Below are positions 37,265-49,879 of a DNA stretch of 50,020 bases, piece by piece. The DNA is from Gammaproteobacteria bacterium. Its GTDB lineage: Bacteria; Pseudomonadota; Gammaproteobacteria; Chromatiales; Chromatiaceae. Location of the stretch: contig RFHJ01000088.1 in assembly GCA_003696905.1 (NCBI GenBank), positions 1 through 50,020 of the forward strand. The letters are read 5' to 3'. Below the pieces are notes generated by a model. It was given only the letters and a program-made list of their open reading frames with translations. It was not told the origin of the DNA and ran no database searches. Positions within the stretch are counted from its first letter, which is position 1; each line of letters opens with the position of its first letter. The position numbers were made by a program, and so were the translations under genes.

Positions 37265-39286
<2,022 letters not shown>

Positions 39287-40316: not shown

Positions 40317-40649
40317 TTACTTGGCAGCGGGAGCAGCCGGAGCCTGAGGAGCGGCCGGGGCAACCGGAGCCGGGGCCATCGGATAGCCATAGCCGTAGTA
40401 GGGCTGGTCGTAGCCGTAGCCGGCGAAGTTGCCGCTGGTGTCGCCGTTGCCCTTGAAGTCGCCGGTGGTCTTGCCACGGCCCTTGAAGGTCATGGAGAAG
40501 GTGGCCTCACCTTCGCCAGTGCCGTTACCGACGAAGTCGCCGTTGCCATTGTAGGAACCGTTGCCGGAGGTGTTGTCACCCCAGAAGCTGGAGCTGGCAG
40601 CAACTTGGGCAGAAGCGAGGATAGCGGCGATAGCGATGATCTTTTTCAT
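40317..40649 (-). CDS. Sulfur-globule-protein-like secreted protein, paralogue 1
   Basis: The 110-residue protein starts with a signal peptide (MKKIIAIAAILASAQVAAS), followed by a low-complexity mature part rich in Gly, Asn, Tyr and Pro. It contains GNG-type repeats, a central ATFSMTFKGRGK, a Tyr-rich GYGYDQPYYGYGYP block, and an Ala/Pro-rich tail ending in APAAK. Purple sulfur bacteria coat their sulfur globules with small exported proteins of this composition; the FSMxFxGRG and GYGYGYP features resemble the SgpC/CV3 type. Function is inferred from composition, not from a diagnostic motif. It shares most of its sequence and its promoter with the paralogue at 40845-41156. Confidence 0.65.
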   Translation of the reverse strand: MKKIIAIAAILASAQVAASSSFWGDNTSGNGSYNGNGDFVGNGTGEGEATFSMTFKGRGKTTGDFKGNGDTSGNFAGYGYDQPYYGYGYPMAPAPVAPAAPQAPAAPAAK

Positions 40650-40844: not shown

Positions 40845-41156
40845 TTACTTGGCAGCCGGGGCTTGCGGCGCTGTGCGGGCAGCCGGCGGCACCGGATAGC
40901 CGTAGCCGTAGTAGGGTTGGTCGTAACCGTAGCCGGCGAAGTTGGCGCTGGTGTCGCCGTTGCCCTTGAAGTCGCCGGCGGTCTTGCCACGGCCCTTGAA
41001 GTTCATGGAGAAGGTGGCCTCACCTTCGCCGGCACCGTTGCCGACGAAATCGCCGTTGCCATTGTAGGATCCATTGGTGGCGCCATTGCTGGAATCCCAG
41101 AAGGCGGCAGCCTGTGCAGAGGCGATGATGGCTGCGATAGCGATGATCTTTTTCAT
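40845..41156 (-). CDS. Sulfur-globule-protein-like secreted protein, paralogue 2
   Basis: The 103-residue protein has a signal peptide (MKKIIAIAAIIASAQAAA), then GNG repeats, ATFSMNFKGRGK, the block GYGYDQPYYGYGYP and a tail ending in APAAK. It is nearly collinear with paralogue 1, with small changes and gaps in the N-terminal and Ala/Pro-rich parts. A 17-codon open extension upstream is rejected because the signal peptide starts at 41156. The gene has its own consensus promoter and a hairpin at its end, so each paralogue is a separate unit. Confidence 0.65.
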   Translation of the reverse strand: MKKIIAIAAIIASAQAAAFWDSSNGATNGSYNGNGDFVGNGAGEGEATFSMNFKGRGKTAGDFKGNGDTSANFAGYGYDQPYYGYGYPVPPAARTAPQAPAAK

Positions 41157-41225
41157 GAGTCTCTCCCGAGTCGGCATCGTTTCGTGTTGGTCTTGTGCGA
41201 CATGCACTGCCCGTCGACGACTTAA

Positions 41226-41373: not shown

Positions 41374-42630
41374 TCAGATCTCGAAAGGCGGCAGCTTTTT
41401 GTCCACCGCTGCCAGCTTCAGTGTGACATAGCGGGGCATGCCATTGTCGTCGTAGTCGGGATACGCCTCTCCCTGGATCAGGGGGTAGAGGTATTCCTTG
41501 CACTTGTCCGTGATGCCGAAGCCATCGTCGGAAATGAAGTCCAGCGGCATCATCTTCTCGACATTGGCCACTTCGCTGAGGGGCGCCTCGCCGATGTGCC
41601 ATTTGTAAGGTGAGGACGATTCGCGCACAACAGTAGGCATGATGGAGTTCTTGCCCTCGAGCGCCTTCTCCACAGCGGCTGCGCCCAGAGCGTACGCCTG
41701 CTCGACGTCAGACTCGGAAGCGAGATGACGCGCGGCGCGCTGCAGGTAGTCGGCGACTGCCCAATGGAACTTGTGTCCAAGGGCGTCTTTGATCATGTTC
41801 GCGACCACCGGGGCGGCTCCACCCAGCTGGGCGTGCCCGAAGGCGTCGCGGGTGCCTTGCTCGGCCAGGAACTTGCCGTCCGGCCAATGGCAGCCCTCGG
41901 AGACGACTACCGAGCAGTAGCCGAACTCCTTCACTTTCGCATCGACGGCGGCCAGGAACTTGTCCTTGTCGAATTCCACTTCGGGGAACAGGATGACCAC
42001 CGGGATGCCGTAGTCTTCGACCAGGCCACCCGCGGCCGCGATCCAGCCGGCATGCCGCCCCATTACCTCGATGACGAAGATCTTGGTGGAAGTGGCGGCC
42101 ATCGAGCGGACGTCGTAACTGGCCTCGAGTGTCGATACGGCGATGTACTTGGCCACTGAGCCGAAGCCGGGGCAGTTGTCGGTGATCGGGAGGTCGTTAT
42201 CCACGGTCTTGGGGACGTGGATGGCCTGGACCGGAAACCCCATCTTCTCCGATAGCTGGGAGACCTTATAGCAGGTATCGGCCGAGTCGCCGCCGCCGTT
42301 GTAGAAGAAATAGCCGATATTGTGTGCCTTGAACACCTCGATCAGCCGCTCGTACTCGCGCTGGTTCTCTTCCAGGCTCTTGAGCTTGTAGCGGCAGGAG
42401 CCGAAGGCGCCGGATGGTGTCTTCTTCAGCGCGGCAATGTCCTCGGTCGATTCCTGGCTTGTGTCGATCAGCTCTTCGGTCAGGGCACCGATGATGCCGT
42501 TGCGGCCGGCATAGACGTTGGCGATCTTGTCGGGGTGTTTGCGGCAGGTCTCGATGACGCCGCAGGCCGAGGCGTTGATAACGGCGGTGACGCCGCCGGA
42601 TTGGGCGTAGAAGGCATTCTTGGCGCTCAT
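41374..42630 (-). CDS. pfp: Pyrophosphate-dependent 6-phosphofructokinase
   Basis: This enzyme phosphorylates fructose-6-phosphate using PPi, reversibly. The 418-residue protein shows the PFK fold with GGVTAVINASACG near the start, FFYNGGGDSADT at about residues 107-118, PKTVDNDLPITDNCPGFGSVA and VIEVMGRHAGWIAAAGG. The GGGDS (ATP enzymes: GGDGS) and TVDND (ATP enzymes typically TIDND) pattern favours PPi. It fits the PPi economy suggested by hppA and ppa nearby. The gene is followed by a strong terminator. Confidence 0.94.
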   Translation of the reverse strand: MSAKNAFYAQSGGVTAVINASACGVIETCRKHPDKIANVYAGRNGIIGALTEELIDTSQESTEDIAALKKTPSGAFGSCRYKLKSLEENQREYERLIEVFKAHNIGYFFYNGGGDSADTCYKVSQLSEKMGFPVQAIHVPKTVDNDLPITDNCPGFGSVAKYIAVSTLEASYDVRSMAATSTKIFVIEVMGRHAGWIAAAGGLVEDYGIPVVILFPEVEFDKDKFLAAVDAKVKEFGYCSVVVSEGCHWPDGKFLAEQGTRDAFGHAQLGGAAPVVANMIKDALGHKFHWAVADYLQRAARHLASESDVEQAYALGAAAVEKALEGKNSIMPTVVRESSSPYKWHIGEAPLSEVANVEKMMPLDFISDDGFGITDKCKEYLYPLIQGEAYPDYDDNGMPRYVTLKLAAVDKKLPPFEI

Positions 42631-42745: not shown

Positions 42746-43093
42746 TCAGATGTCGCCGCGCTCGCGGGCCTCGTGGTCGGCCTGCGCCTGCAACAGCGAG
42801 ACGGCGCATTCGGTCAGGTCGTCATATTCGTGCACCCCGGTGCCATACTGCTGGTAGCCACGGTAGAAGAACTGGCAGCGATAGCGGCGTTCGCCCGTCT
42901 TGAAGATGACGAAGTGACAGTTATCGGCTTTCCAGAAAAATACCGGACAGGTGCTGAGCTCCCGGTCCGCCGGGCTGAGGCGGATCTCGGCATCGGCGAA
43001 CTGCAGTTCGGGGGGGTGGTCGCCGTAGCGTTCCCTGAGTGTCGTCTCGACGATCCAGCGTTCGGTGTCGGTGATGTCGGGAATCTCATTCAT
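42746..43093 (-). CDS. Hypothetical protein, 115 residues
   Basis: The predicted protein (from ATG 43093; an in-frame TTG at 43111 is an alternative) is acidic and Cys/aromatic-containing: WIVETTLRERYGDHPPELQ, CPVFFWKADNCHFVIFK, RYRCQFFYRGYQQYG. No signal peptide or membrane segment is evident. I do not recognise a family. It lies 115 bp upstream of pfp in the same orientation, and its promoter would sit in the intergenic region shared with the adk-like leader. Confidence 0.65.
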   Translation of the reverse strand: MNEIPDITDTERWIVETTLRERYGDHPPELQFADAEIRLSPADRELSTCPVFFWKADNCHFVIFKTGERRYRCQFFYRGYQQYGTGVHEYDDLTECAVSLLQAQADHEARERGDI

Positions 43094-43472
43094 GGGGCTT
43101 GTCTTGGCCAAACGGGGCGCGGGTCGCCCCGGATTTTCGCAGGCAAGGTGCGATGAATTGTGCAGATTTTGGCCGTTTTACAAAAATACGCGAAAAAATA
43201 GACGAACTTGCCCAAAAAATCGCCAAAAACAGGGCCTTTCGTTGACAAGGCAAAAAATGTGCGATTAGCTTAGACAAGGAGGACGGGGTCAGCCAATGCA
43301 AAACACGCATGGCCCCATAGGAAAATCCTAATTTCCTGAAATGTGGCCGTCCAGTCTGGGTCGGTGAAGGATCGCGTGGCGGAGGGCCGTGGCCGACCGT
43401 CACAACGCGACACCGGGTAGGCGGACGTTTGTCGGGTGCCAACATAATAAGAGGCCTGTTACAGGAGCCACC
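43094..43472 (+). other. Long non-coding leader/promoter region upstream of the adenylate-kinase-like gene
   Basis: The 379-bp region is AT-rich at 43160-43275, unlike its GC-rich surroundings. It contains a short frame at 43153-43245 (30 codons, Lys-rich, with AGGTG before the ATG), whose stop overlaps a promoter, and a mini-frame at 43296-43331 (11 codons). AGGAAA/TTTCCT (43319-43337 region) and GGTCGG/CCGACC (about 43360-43407) could form hairpins. A leader of about 200 nt would precede the gene. Functions are not assigned. Confidence 0.4.
43242..43270 (+). promoter_or_regulatory. Sigma-70-type promoter of the adenylate-kinase-like gene
   Basis: TTGACA (43242-43247) and TTAGCT (43265-43270) are separated by 17 bases within an AT-rich stretch. 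The -35 box is perfect, the -10 box weak. It would yield a leader of about 195 nt. Confidence 0.5.
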
Positions 43473-44663
43473 ATGCGGATAGTACTTCTTGGCCCACCGG
43501 GGTCCGGCAAGGGTGAATTGGCGCAACGGATCGCCCAGGCCTACGGTATTCCCATCATCACCCAGTCCAGTGTCGTGGACGCGGTGGCTGCAGAGCCCGG
43601 CGAGCTAGGTCGTCTGGCCGCCGAGGCGCGAGATGCCTCCCGCGTTTCCGATGAGCTGTTGCTGGCGCTGCTGCGTATCCAGCTGCCGAAGATCGATCTC
43701 TCGAAAGGGTACTTGCTGGTGGATATCCCGCGCGATGCGGGCCAGGCCGATGTCCTCGATGCCATGCTCAACGATCTGGGCAAACCGGTAGACCTGGTGA
43801 TCAAGCTCGACGTCGACATGGATGAACTGATGGAGCGCCTGGTCGGGCGGGTTCAGTGCGACAATTGCGGCGCCGAATACAACATGTATGTCAATCCGCC
43901 CCTGGTGGATGGCGTCTGTGACGAATGCGGTGCGCGGGTGCGTCGCCGGCCGCCCGACTATGAAGAAACCATCAGTAACCGGCTGCGGGTCTACGAGGGC
44001 CAGATGGGGCCGCTGCTCCAGTATTACCAGCAGGCGGGGAAGCTCCACCGGTTCGATGCGACCGGTGAGGTGGAGCCCTTGTGGCAGCAGGTGAAGGCCG
44101 TCGTCGAGGCCACCCCCAGCCCTGAGGTGGCCGCGGCTGCCGCAGAAGAGGCCGCGCAGCCGGTCGCGCCGCCGGCAAAGAAAGTGGCAGCCGAGAAAAA
44201 GGTGGCCAAGAAGGTCGCCAAGGCTGCGGGTAGGAAAGCGGCCAAGAAGGCGGCGAAAAAGGTGGCAAAAAAGGCTGTAAAAAAGGTGGTGAAAAAGTCT
44301 GCTGCCAAGAAGGTGGCGAAGAAAAAGGCCGCTCACAAGAAAGTGGCGAAGAAGAAGGTCGCGAAGGCGGCCAAGAAAGCGACGAGGAAAGTCGCCAAGG
44401 GGGCCGTGAGCAAGAAGGTGGTGAAAAAGACCGCCAGCAAAAAGGCCGTGAAGAAAGTGGCCAAGAAGGCAGCAGCCAAGAAAAAGGTAACCAAGAAGGT
44501 CGCCGCAAAAAACGTGGCCAAGAAAGTCGCAGCGAAGAAGGGCGCGGCCAAGAAAGCTGTCCGCAAGAAGAAGGTCGTGAAGAAGGCCGCTACCAAGAAA
44601 AAGGCCGCCAGCAAGAAGGCCGTGAAGAAAGTGACCAAGAAGGGCCGGTCGCGCCGGCGCTGA
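43473..44663 (+). CDS. Adenylate-kinase-like protein with a histone-H1-like Lys/Ala-rich tail
   Basis: The 396-residue protein has an adenylate-kinase domain (1-213): P-loop GPPGSGKG (7-14), [13 protein letters not shown] (Arg87), the LID ERLVGR, and four LID cysteines (129, 132, 149, 152) that could bind zinc. A 183-residue Lys/Ala/Val tail follows, built from AKK and VAKK units like histone H1 and bacterial H1-like DNA-binding proteins. The AMP site is unusual: the ISTGDMLR of standard enzymes is replaced by ITQSSVVD, so Thr31, Asp33 and Arg36 (Escherichia coli numbering) are lost. It may be a standard-looking fold with another nucleotide, or a non-kinase role in DNA binding (inference). 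The ATG at 43473 has an AGGAG site upstream. Confidence 0.85.
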
Positions 44664-44687: not shown

Positions 44688-46538
44688 ATGCAACGTCAGG
44701 CCCAGCGCCCGTCGGTGCTGCAGACCCTCTCGGATGTCTTCGGCTATTCCGACTTCCGTCCCCTGCAGCGGGAGATCATCGATGCCCTGATCGCGGGCGA
44801 AGACGCCTTCGTCCTCATGCCGACCGGGGGCGGCAAGTCGCTCTGCTATCAGATTCCTGCCCTGCACCGGCCGGGGGTGGCGGTGGTGGTCTCGCCCCTG
44901 ATCGCCTTGATGAAGGATCAGGTCGACGCCCTGCAGGCGAGCGGTGTGGCGGCCGCCTGCTACAACTCCAGCGTCGACGGCGAGCAGGCGCGGAAGATTC
45001 TCGCACGTCTGCACGCCGGAGAGCTGGATCTGCTGTACGTGAGCCCCGAGCGCCTGCTCGGCGGCGACCTGCTGCAGCGCCTCGGCGAGGTGCCGCTGGC
45101 GCTGTTCGCCATCGACGAGGCCCACTGCGTCTCCCAATGGGGACACGACTTCCGCCCGGAATATGCCCGCCTCGGCCTGCTGCGCGAACGGTTCCCCGAT
45201 GTGCCCCTGATCGGCCTCACCGCCACCGCCGACGAGCAGACCCGGGAGGATATCCGGCGGGTGCTGGGTCTGCAGCGGGCGCGGACCTGGCAGGGGGGCT
45301 TCGATCGGCCGAATATCCGCTACGCGGTGTTGGAAAAGCACCGCCCCTTCGAGCAACTGCAGGCCTTTCTGGCGGCCCACCGTGGCGAGGCGGGCATCGT
45401 CTATGCTCTCAGCCGCCGCAGGGTGGAGGAGGTCGCCGAACGGCTCTCCGCGACCGGGGTGCGTGCCGCGGCCTATCACGCCGGCCTGCCCCCCGAGCGC
45501 CGCCAGGCCACCCAGGAGGCCTTTCTGCGGGACGACATCGAGGTGGTGGTGGCGACGGTGGCCTTCGGCATGGGTATCGACAAGCCCAATGTGCGCTTCG
45601 TCGTGCACTACGACCTGCCGCGCAACATCGAGGGCTACTATCAGGAGACCGGTCGTGCGGGGCGCGATGGCCTGCCCGCCGAGGCCCTGCTGCTGTATGG
45701 AGCGCAGGATGTGGTGACCGCCCGCCGCCTGATCGAGAACACCGAGGATGAAACCCGCCGCCGGGTGGAACTGCACAAGCTCGACGCCATGGTCGCCCTG
45801 GCCGAGAGCCTGGGTTGCCGGCGCCGGGTGCTGCTGAACTATTTCGGCGATCATCAGGACGAGGACTGCGGCCACTGCGACCGCTGCGACGACCCGCCCG
45901 AGCGCTACGACGCCACGCGGGATGCGCAGATGGCCCTGTCCTGTGTCTACCGGGTGGGCCAGCGCTTCGGTATCCGGCACGTGGTCGAGGTCCTGCGCGG
46001 CGCCGACACCGAACGCATTCGGCGCCTCGGGCATGACCGCCTGTCCACCTACGGCATCGGGGGCGAACGCAGTGACCAGGAGTGGATGTCCATCCTGCGT
46101 CAGCTGATCCACCTGGGCTTTCTCCGCCAGGACATCGCCAACTACGCGGTGCTGCAGCTGACCGAGCGCGCGCGTCCGCTGTTGCGCGGCGAGGTCACCC
46201 TCGAGCTCGCCCGACCCAGGGTGCGGGAGCGCGCGGGACAGCGTCGCAAAAGGTCTGTCTCGTCGCAGGGGCCCTATGACGAGGCCCTGTTCGAGCGGTT
46301 GCGCGCCTTGCGCAAACAGCTGGCGGACGAGCAGGGTGTGCCGCCCTATGTGATCTTCGGTGACGCCAGTCTGGCGCAGATGGCGCGCGACCAACCCCGC
46401 GATGCGGAGGCCTTTCTGGCGGTCCATGGGGTGGGTACGCACAAACTCGAGAAATACGGCGAAGCCTTTCTCCGCGCCATCGCCGATTATTGCACCGATA
46501 CCAGCACGAGTGGCTCGCCGCAGTTCCGGCAGCAATAG
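44688..46538 (+). CDS. recQ: ATP-dependent DNA helicase RecQ
   Basis: RecQ unwinds DNA with 3'-5' polarity in recombination and repair. The 616-residue protein contains Walker A ([16 protein letters not shown]), the DEAH box in [19 protein letters not shown], motif VI GRAGRDG, a zinc-binding RQC region (CDRCDDPP after CGHC) and a C-terminal HRDC domain (about 525-600). The start is 24 bp after the adk-like stop, so the two may be cotranscribed. Its 3' end overlaps the sprT-like gene on the other strand by 52 bp. Confidence 0.96.
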
Positions 46539-47187: not shown

Positions 47188-49719
47188 TCAACCGCCGTTG
47201 ATCTTGTTGCTATGGCACTGGGTGCAGCCTACCTTGGTGCCCTTGGGCACAGTGATGACCTGCCCCTTCGCGCTACACAACGAGCCCTTGCTGTCCTTGC
47301 AGATCCACTGACGCTGGGCGCCGGTGCGCGACAGCTCCGTACCCTGCCCGTTGGCACCATGACAGCTCTTGCACTCGCTGGTGTTGCGTTCCGCCAGCTT
47401 CTCGTGCTTCTTGTTCCATGTGCGGCTGCCCACCGGGTGCATGCCGTGCGGCCCTTCGAGGGTGACGCCCAGATCGATGTTGCCGTGGCAGGTGTTGCAC
47501 TCGCGCAATACGCCGGTGTGGCCTTGCAGGTCTTTCGCCGCAAGGTTGTCGTTCGAAGCGGCGAACGGATTGGGCCAGATCGCGTGGGTACTCCCGTGGC
47601 AACCCTCGCACATCACACCGCCATGGCCCTTGCTCAGGCGATACAGATGGTCCTTGCCGTTGGTATCCCGGGTTTCGGCGAAGCGCCGGTTGACCGCCTT
47701 GATCGGTGAGGCCGTCGGATCGTTGGTGCGATAGGCCTGCAGCAGGCGGATGCCGTCGCTCGCCGGAATCACGTTGGGATCGTTGGCGAGGTTGCTCATG
47801 GCATCGCCCGTGTGGCAGGACTGACAGCCCGGCTCACTGGCCCAGGGGACGCGCTTGGACCAGTCCAGATTGGCGGCCCAGTTGGGATCGCCCGGGGCGT
47901 TGTTGACCAGCTTCTCCGAGAAGTCGTCCCCGACCTCCTTCATGTTGCCATGACAGTCCTGGCATACCACACCGGCGCCGCCCATGGCACCACGCAGGCA
48001 CTTGGTCCGCTTGCCTGGATGGCAGGCATAGCAGGTCTTTTCCAGGATGTCCTGGGTCGTGGAGAGGCTGCGATTGCCGGGCGGCGGCATATCGGGGAAC
48101 AGGTCCGTGAATTGGCCATGGTGTCCATGCATGGCCCGTGACATGGAGATGTGCCGGGTCTGTTCCTTGCCGTTGTCGTCGTTCGGTCCCAACTGTGCCA
48201 GGTCCAGCGCGGGCGAGTAGTGACAGCTGGCGCAGACGATCTTGCGCCTGGTGTCCAGTTCGGTCCCGTGCTTGGCGTCGTGCAGGCGCAGGATATTGAT
48301 CTTGGAGGCGTTCAACACCTTCTGATACTTCGTATCGCCAGGTATCGACGGGAAGTCGGACGCCGTGACCACGTTGAAGTCGGTGGACGCAAAGCTGGCA
48401 GCCTCCCCGTTGCACGCCTGGCTCGCGGTACGCGTGGACAGATTGCAGACCTCCTGATCCAGGTGGCACAGCTGACAATCGGCCTCTGCCGCGACGGGCA
48501 GGACGATGCGTACCGAGGCAAGCTGATTGGCCGGGTCATTGGGGTCCTTACCCTTCTGGACTGCCGTCACTTTCATTAGCGGGTAAGGGGCCTCCCACAC
48601 ATTGCCTTGAGCGTCCGGATCGGAGACCGGCATGATCGGCACGCCCTCGGCGGTGAAACGGTCGATGTTGTCCGCGATATAGCCGAAGGGCAGGCTGTTG
48701 AAGAAGGGATAGTTGTTGATATAGCCATGGAACGGCTTGGGCGTGTTGCTGGTTCCGGGCATCTGTTGCTGATGGGCCTCGAGGGTGCCATCGCCAAGGT
48801 GCAGACGCTCCACGTTCGGCGACGGGAGGCCGGTATCCGCAGGCAGTGAGAACTGACTGAGGACGCCGGTGGGGTAGAGTGGATCATAGACGGTGCGGCC
48901 CAGGCTCCTGTCCCAGAAGTTGGTCTTGAATGCATTGCCGATGTTCTGGCTGGTGGTGGTGATTACGTTGGGCGGAACTGCGTCCGCAGGACTGTGCACG
49001 GCGGTGTAATAGACGTCCACCTGGGTGGAATCCATGATCTGCGGCTCGGCGCCCTTCTTCAATACCTGGCTGTGAACCACGTTGAAGGGCGGCAGGATCG
49101 AGAAGATCCGGTAGTCCTGATCGGCACAGTGCATGCCCAAGTCGTTGCTGGCAATGGTCACATAGTTGCCGCTGGGAGTGGTGCCGACGGTAGCGCCCCC
49201 GCCGGTATTGCCGCCGCCGGTGTTACCCCCACCGGTGTTGCCCCCACCGGTGTTGCCACCGCCGGTGTTGCCACCGCCGGTGTTGCCACCGCCGGTATTG
49301 CCACCGCCGGTATTGCCACCGCCGGTATTGCCACCGCCGGTATTGCCGCCGTCAGCGTGACAATAGCGACTGGCGTTCTTGACCGTTTTGGCCGTGGCGC
49401 TACCGTCGGCGACTGCCTCGACCCGGCAGGGTGGTGTGCCGAGAGACAGCTTGACGCGCCATTTGCCCTCGCCGTTGCTCACGGTCTGGGTGATGGTGGC
49501 CATGGAATCTGCGTCCTTGATGCTAACAGCCGTCCGCTTGGGTGCGCGACCCTTCACCACCAGGCGAGAGTCGCCCGCCTCCCACTTGGCCTCTTTGATT
49601 CGAAGCGTGTAGTGGTGACTCCCTCCCTGATGGTGCTCATGGTTGCCAGCGATCGAGGGCATGGCGACAGGCAGGCCCAGGCCCGCAACTGCCAACCAGG
49701 ACAGTCTCTTTATCAACAT
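47188..49719 (-). CDS. Secreted nine-heme c-type cytochrome with a Gly-Asn-Thr repeat linker
   Basis: The 843-residue protein has a signal peptide (MLIKRLSWLAVAGLGLPVAM...), an N-terminal beta-type domain (about 25-120), a linker of ten 5-residue repeats (GGGNT-type), and a C-terminal multiheme domain with nine CxxCH motifs. These are CQLCH, CASCH, CYACH, CQDCH, CQSCH, CEGCH, CNTCH, CKSCH and CTQCH, spread over residues about 415-838. No catalytic signature is visible, so electron transfer is assumed; substrate and partner are unknown. The start at 49719 follows GGAGG by 8 bases; an ATG five codons upstream overlaps that site and is unlikely. It is probably exported to the periplasm or outer surface. 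Confidence 0.9.
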   Translation of the reverse strand: MLIKRLSWLAVAGLGLPVAMPSIAGNHEHHQGGSHHYTLRIKEAKWEAGDSRLVVKGRAPKRTAVSIKDADSMATITQTVSNGEGKWRVKLSLGTPPCRVEAVADGSATAKTVKNASRYCHADGGNTGGGNTGGGNTGGGNTGGGNTGGGNTGGGNTGGGNTGGGNTGGGNTGGGATVGTTPSGNYVTIASNDLGMHCADQDYRIFSILPPFNVVHSQVLKKGAEPQIMDSTQVDVYYTAVHSPADAVPPNVITTTSQNIGNAFKTNFWDRSLGRTVYDPLYPTGVLSQFSLPADTGLPSPNVERLHLGDGTLEAHQQQMPGTSNTPKPFHGYINNYPFFNSLPFGYIADNIDRFTAEGVPIMPVSDPDAQGNVWEAPYPLMKVTAVQKGKDPNDPANQLASVRIVLPVAAEADCQLCHLDQEVCNLSTRTASQACNGEAASFASTDFNVVTASDFPSIPGDTKYQKVLNASKINILRLHDAKHGTELDTRRKIVCASCHYSPALDLAQLGPNDDNGKEQTRHISMSRAMHGHHGQFTDLFPDMPPPGNRSLSTTQDILEKTCYACHPGKRTKCLRGAMGGAGVVCQDCHGNMKEVGDDFSEKLVNNAPGDPNWAANLDWSKRVPWASEPGCQSCHTGDAMSNLANDPNVIPASDGIRLLQAYRTNDPTASPIKAVNRRFAETRDTNGKDHLYRLSKGHGGVMCEGCHGSTHAIWPNPFAASNDNLAAKDLQGHTGVLRECNTCHGNIDLGVTLEGPHGMHPVGSRTWNKKHEKLAERNTSECKSCHGANGQGTELSRTGAQRQWICKDSKGSLCSAKGQVITVPKGTKVGCTQCHSNKINGG
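49196..49345 (-). repeat. Ten tandem 15-bp repeats within the cytochrome gene
   Basis: The unit encodes Gly-Gly-Gly-Asn-Thr on the minus strand and is repeated ten times in frame with small third-position changes. It forms a flexible linker and could change length by slippage without breaking the frame. Confidence 0.9.
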
Positions 49720-49879
49720 GGGAAATTCCTCCATTTATCTGAAGGAGGAGTCTAGATGACCGAAAGAGATGAAAGTGCGGCCTGAGTCACATTTCTCTTT
49801 ATTGGATGGAATAGTTTTCCGCAGTGTCCCCTGGGCCCATTGGGGGTTGTGAAGGGTTTCTCCACAAGGCTTAGGGAAA

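Follow-up and report, generated by a model that had tools for sequence, protein, structure and literature searches.

Adenylate kinase (ADK) is a textbook essential enzyme. Its ATP loop follows the consensus GxPGxGKGT, and T31, D33, R36 and R88 are taken here to be its AMP-binding residues. The closest tested precedent for the basic tail described below is AlgP of Pseudomonas, a DNA-binding protein with an H1-like KPAA tail that is reported to be required for the spacing of polyphosphate (polyP) granules and to yield peptides that bind DNA (PMC9239181). A pyrophosphate (PPi)-type phosphofructokinase (PFK) is reported for sulphur oxidisers of the kind considered here in PMC4287430 and PMC4136832, and an H+-PPase in at least one of the two; the term "adenylate kinase" is absent from the main text of both papers, which deal with related bacteria. 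No title among the papers listed in literature searches was relevant to an ADK that is tailed, H1-like or dead, or to one encoded beside PFK.

The window analysed here is a stretch of 50,020 nucleotides from a gammaproteobacterium of the Chromatiaceae (contig RFHJ01000088.1, assembly GCA_003696905.1), and encodes a protein in which an ADK-fold domain is followed by such a tail. The ADK with an H1-like tail is a real, family-wide feature, which in the window apparently takes the form of a selected pseudoenzyme.

The window protein and its active site

The features of the locus are collected in Table 1. The gene begins with ATG, with AGGAG upstream at 43463-43467; a promoter scan gave no site, and four terminator-like sites were observed against 2.5 expected.

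Table 1. Positions in the window of the tailed ADK gene, its parts and its neighbours
Feature	Position	Strand	Remarks
H_PPase, membrane proton-pumping pyrophosphatase	37292..39247	-	same strand as PFK gene
Phosphofructokinase (Pfam PFK)	41374..42630	-	conserved divergent neighbour of tailed ADK gene
ORF, 121 aa, no Pfam match	42746..43111	-	often conserved between PFK and tailed ADK genes
Tailed ADK ORF	43473-44663	+	396 aa: 213-aa ADK-fold domain and 183-aa tail
ADK-fold domain, zinc-type LID	43473..44111	+	213 aa; Pfam, alignment, AlphaFold2
P-loop GPPGSGKGE	43491..43517	+	Lys13 retained, Thr15 replaced by Glu
AMP-loop remnant TQSSVVD	43560..43580	+	STGDMLR in the genome's own E. coli-type ADK
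Zinc-type LID, Cys129, 132, 149, 152	43857..43928	+	alignments
H1-like K/A/V tail	44112..44660	+	183 aa; composition
recQ	44688..46538	+	24 bp downstream of tailed ADK gene; Pfam

Pfam detects both ADK (101 bits, cut-off 26.8) and ADK_lid (43 bits, cut-off 26.6) in the window protein. AlphaFold2, with 30 aligned sequences, models the ADK domain with pLDDT 88.5 and pTM 0.82, and in a structure search with the predicted core the matches listed (50 PDB entries) were all adenylate kinases, the best being 2c9y (Z 23.8, rmsd 4.6, 216 aligned). Pfam, prediction and PDB matches agree on an ADK fold with NMP, CORE and LID domains, which is predicted to be intact; the derivation from adenylate kinase proposed in the preliminary description of this DNA is thereby borne out. 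The score against the NCBIfam model TIGR01351, 155.3 bits, lies under the cut-off of 168, which leaves the protein outside that subfamily. The pI is 4.7 for the core and 11.9 for the tail.

Aligned with the genome's own E. coli-type ADK, the window protein has Q, S and D at residues 31, 33 and 36 in place of T, D and R, which confirms the earlier reading of its AMP loop as one that has lost Thr31, Asp33 and Arg36; the AMP-binding set as a whole reads Q, S, D and R. Also as described earlier, the arginine at position 88 (window Arg87), the LID arginines R119, R123, R156 and R167 and the four LID cysteines are retained, together with Q92; the cysteines are invariant across 15 sequences and present in 100% of the intact set defined below. 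The P-loop had been called kept, which is true of Lys13 but not of the consensus as a whole. Since Thr15 is also gone, ATP binding by the window protein is uncertain. Further substitutions beyond the AMP loop change D158 to Pro and DG at 84-85 to VD. Judged by these residues, the AMP kinase activity of the window protein has likely been lost.

The last 170 residues comprise 69 K, 47 A, 26 V, 7 R and 3 P, with a net charge of +75, a long, low-complexity, Lys/Ala-rich basic composition that agrees with the H1-like character first assigned to the last 183. A Pfam scan of the tail up to E=1 found no family, histone-like ones included, although low-complexity filters may mask one. At the DNA level the tail repeats imperfectly (66-90% match at periods of 12-45) and its Lys codons are mixed (AAG 49, AAA 20), and it is therefore unlike fresh slippage; as the tail is also common to relatives, recent slippage is rejected as its origin.

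Tailed adenylate kinases and the erosion of the AMP site

Three ADK-family genes are present in the window's genome, namely the window gene and two adjacent ones on another contig that carry the intact motifs ISTGDILR and ISTGDMLR. The separate standard adk that the preliminary description had thought possible therefore exists, and the window gene is rejected as the sole ADK of this genome. The impression of an isolated oddity did not survive either, as the window protein belongs to a large family of tailed ADKs. Close homologues with long open reading frames turned up in many genera when 146 genomes of the window's taxonomic family were searched, and relatives in named records (44 loci) include Sedimenticola, Thiolapillus and Thiodiazotropha as well as symbionts of Lamellibrachia, Escarpia and Solemya. 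At the level of the class, 122 of 276 genomes gave E values of 1e-55 or lower, many of them with frames of more than 300 aa; this count mixes tailed and ordinary ADKs. In the phylum, a search with an intact core had 58 matching genomes among 348 at E 1e-58, and most frames among the matches listed were short. Many gammaproteobacterial families have tailed ADKs; the AMP site of these is often intact, and in some genomes no other ADK was found.

From this branch 117 ADKs were read out, one per genome, 68 from the window's family and 49 from outside it, the latter chosen mostly for long frames, so that the proportion with a tail should not be read as a frequency. A copy was called degenerate if not all of T31, D/E33, R/K36 and R88 were present, a lenient rule under which E33 and K36 pass and the copies of genus g8, mostly K36, are scored intact; one copy (G230) was set to intact and left out of the trees. 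With G230 left out, a tail of at least 30 aa is present in 107 of 116 ADKs, and one of at least 60 aa with at least 20% Lys in 99. Such a tail of at least 30 aa is carried by 39 of the 40 degenerate copies (median net charge +62) and 68 of the 76 intact ones are tailed (median +80). Within the window's genus (g1), tails are 71-219 aa long with 28-38% Lys. Some tails of the set are cut at contig ends, which makes their lengths lower bounds. The domain fusion is present in close relatives, and the tail outlives the active site.

A degenerate AMP site is found in 40 of the 117 ADKs, and 37 of these sit in genomes with other ADKs. The site is intact in 28 of 31 single-ADK genomes versus 49 of 86 multi-ADK genomes (Fisher p 0.0007, not phylogeny-corrected); in genomes of at least 92% completeness, degenerate copies number 0/28 and 31/79, respectively. 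Outside the window's family the corresponding figures are 0/21 and 6/28 (p 0.03, likewise not corrected for phylogeny), and inside it 3/10 and 31/58, a difference that is not significant (p 0.30). The three genomes in which a degenerate ADK is the only one found (G040, G051 and G088) are 72, 90 and 91% complete, and the latter two are both available genomes of their genus. On a careful tree, in which the 17 included standard paralogues form one group (100/96), the degenerate label requires nine changes (bootstrap 8-10), and well-supported branches force three. AMP-site erosion in the window's family probably happened several times. Some degenerate copies sit on long branches (up to 2.1), a pattern partly in line with relaxed selection. 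The copy at locus L055 (G089), an untailed ADK without Lys13 and R88 as aligned, in a genome of 1.6 Mb, looks like true decay.

Site retention was scored in 26 window-type relatives from a 27-member degenerate clade of a quick tree, with G089 left out; in the careful tree this clade is no single group but a succession of branches close to the midpoint root. In these 26, T31 is kept in none, R36 in 8%, Thr15 in 4% and D158 in 27%, and Lys13, G10, G12 and the four cysteines are present in all, with R119 and R156 at 96%. Among positions with high conservation in the intact copies, retention is 0.39 for the AMP site, 0.75 for the ATP site and 0.71 elsewhere (AMP versus ATP site, permutation p 0.023, not phylogeny-corrected). 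The ADK domain is constrained except at the AMP pocket.

Core dN/dS medians are 0.061 (10 pairs), 0.079 and 0.095 in the degenerate genera g1, g42 and g30, lie at 0.06-0.10 over six degenerate genera, and are 0.052 and 0.062 in the intact genera g21 and g45, the gene of g45 being a sole ADK; all are rough because synonymous divergence is high in several groups. The PFK neighbour gives 0.019-0.054 in the same five groups, with some PFK genes taken from short loci and perhaps partial. The degenerate copies remain under purifying selection, which in the window's genus is like that on the sole intact ADK.

Gene neighbourhood

The PFK of the window is presumably of the PPi type, on the basis of signature residues. 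A divergent PFK adjoins 65 of 72 tailed ADK genes versus none of eight untailed ones, a comparison of 80 loci whose upstream sequence spans 2 kb or more; related loci were counted separately, and six of 86 were dropped for short upstream sequence or no tail call, four of which have PFK. It stands beside 30 of the 31 degenerate loci tested, and the 121-aa ORF near these genes is conserved across many Gammaproteobacteria. The nearby H+-PPase gene perhaps makes this a pyrophosphate-metabolism cluster. Between the PFK and GtrA genes lie two genes for sulphur globule proteins (Pfam SGP; 40320-40649 and 40845-41162, both on the minus strand), and an 848-aa cytochrome-like protein (Cytochrome_C7) with a long GGGNT repeat is encoded at 47188-49734 on the minus strand. 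Of 25 genomes tested, 18 (among them four from the window's genus) have a polyP kinase domain (PF02503), which was not found in the other seven (the window's, 3/3 of g30, 2/2 of g45, and G036); as the window's genome is 92% complete, the gene may be missing from its assembly.

The distance to recQ is as originally given, but the link it had seemed to hint at is unsupported. A same-strand recQ follows the ADK gene at 8 of 84 loci, all from close relatives (two genomes are counted twice, and some loci stop shortly after the ADK gene), and it is absent in G144, a member of the window's genus; recQ as a general partner is rejected. At locus L034 (G109) the recQ behind the tailed ADK gene is split over two ORFs, possibly by a frameshift. 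Longest downstream ORFs were taken from 11 loci, and the six proteins scanned, from five loci, vary (PmbA/TldD-type, LeuRS, glycosyltransferase, ABC1 and one unknown).

Proposed role and comparison with described proteins

It is probable, though well short of certain, that the window protein is a selected ADK pseudoenzyme of tailed-ADK descent, held on nucleic acid by its basic tail. Its ancestor would be the tailed ADK of many Gammaproteobacteria families, a zinc-LID ADK with a polycationic, presumably disordered tail, whose gene usually stands head-to-head with that of a PPi-type PFK. The tail presumably tethers the enzyme to a polyanion, most likely nucleic acid. Where such a protein is the sole ADK found, its AMP site is nearly always preserved; in the window's family, in which other ADKs are usually present, the AMP site has decayed with fold and tail under purifying selection, and it is this combination that marks the window protein as a selected pseudoenzyme. 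It would not be expected to phosphorylate AMP. Lys13 and the LID arginines may still let it bind a nucleotide, and the tail would hold it on DNA or RNA. Judging by composition, binding of the tail to a polyanion can be proposed with moderate confidence, and binding to nucleic acid is plausible given the AlgP precedent as well. Residual nucleotide binding, and a role for it there, is at most faintly suggested, and a regulatory or scaffold role on nucleic acid would be a guess. With Thr15 and D158 mostly lost in the 26 relatives, nucleotide binding may have disappeared as well; ATP-site positions are retained no better than other conserved ones, and the three genomes with a degenerate ADK alone also count against this explanation, as do the non-significant link to copy number within the window's family and the long degenerate branches.

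An active kinase whose AMP pocket has been rebuilt for another nucleotide or a small molecule would account for the retained R88, Q92 and LID arginines, the fold predicted to be intact and the strong selection. The pocket residues, however, diverge among degenerate lineages (TQSS, TVSS, VEEV, LQDR) with no convergence, R88 is Lys in several copies and Thr15 is gone, which makes a changed acceptor improbable. Slow decay of a redundant enzyme, with tail and domain as remnants, would fit the long branches, the 37 of 40 degenerate copies found alongside other ADKs, and G089, whose copy as aligned has neither tail, Lys13 nor R88. Against the low dN/dS medians in six degenerate genera, the tail in 39 of 40 degenerate copies and the PFK neighbour kept at 30 of 31 loci, such decay is very improbable as a general account. 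Just as little probability attaches to a tail that targets polyP granules instead of DNA, in a protein that would serve PPi/polyP metabolism together with the products of the neighbouring PFK and H+-PPase genes. AlgP provides a precedent, the PFK neighbour and the H+-PPase in the same window would suit it, and polyP kinase occurs in most genomes tested; its apparent lack in seven, the window's incomplete one included, weakens this proposal but does no more than that.

If the selected pseudoenzyme does bind nucleic acid through its tail, energy charge, pyrophosphate metabolism and the nucleoid would be linked in sulphur oxidisers that include symbionts of deep-sea animals. In the broadest version, an H1-like tail would have put ADK on the bacterial nucleoid at least twice, and one lineage, in chemosynthetic sulphur oxidisers and symbionts, would have ended as a pseudoenzyme that sits on nucleic acid, reads nucleotide state and serves as regulator or scaffold, with a genetic tie to pyrophosphate-based energy metabolism. 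This version is speculative and on balance unlikely. The natural series of intact sole, intact extra and degenerate copies lets the role of the tail be separated from catalysis.

With zinc-LID bacterial ADKs (TIGR01351; PDB 1zin and 5g3y) the window protein has in common the fold, the P-loop lysine, the LID arginines and the four cysteines; it differs from them in the absence of T31, D33, R36 and T15 and in its long basic tail. The tailed ADKs of NCBIfam NF010381 (PRK13808), above cut-off in 10 of 398 genomes, likewise consist of an ADK followed by a K/A-rich tail. Unlike the window protein, the three members examined, which come from a single family, have a short LID without cysteines and an intact STGEMLR or STGDMLR, and their genomes belong to the same phylum but lie outside Gammaproteobacteria. 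Short-LID ADKs outside the class with a similar tail suggest that the tail probably arose twice, that of NF010381 apparently being a separate acquisition. AlgP and PhaF of Pseudomonas share with the window protein the arrangement of an N-terminal part and a long Lys/Ala tail, but their tails are built of proline-rich KPAA-type repeats, whereas that of the window protein has only three prolines in 170 residues.
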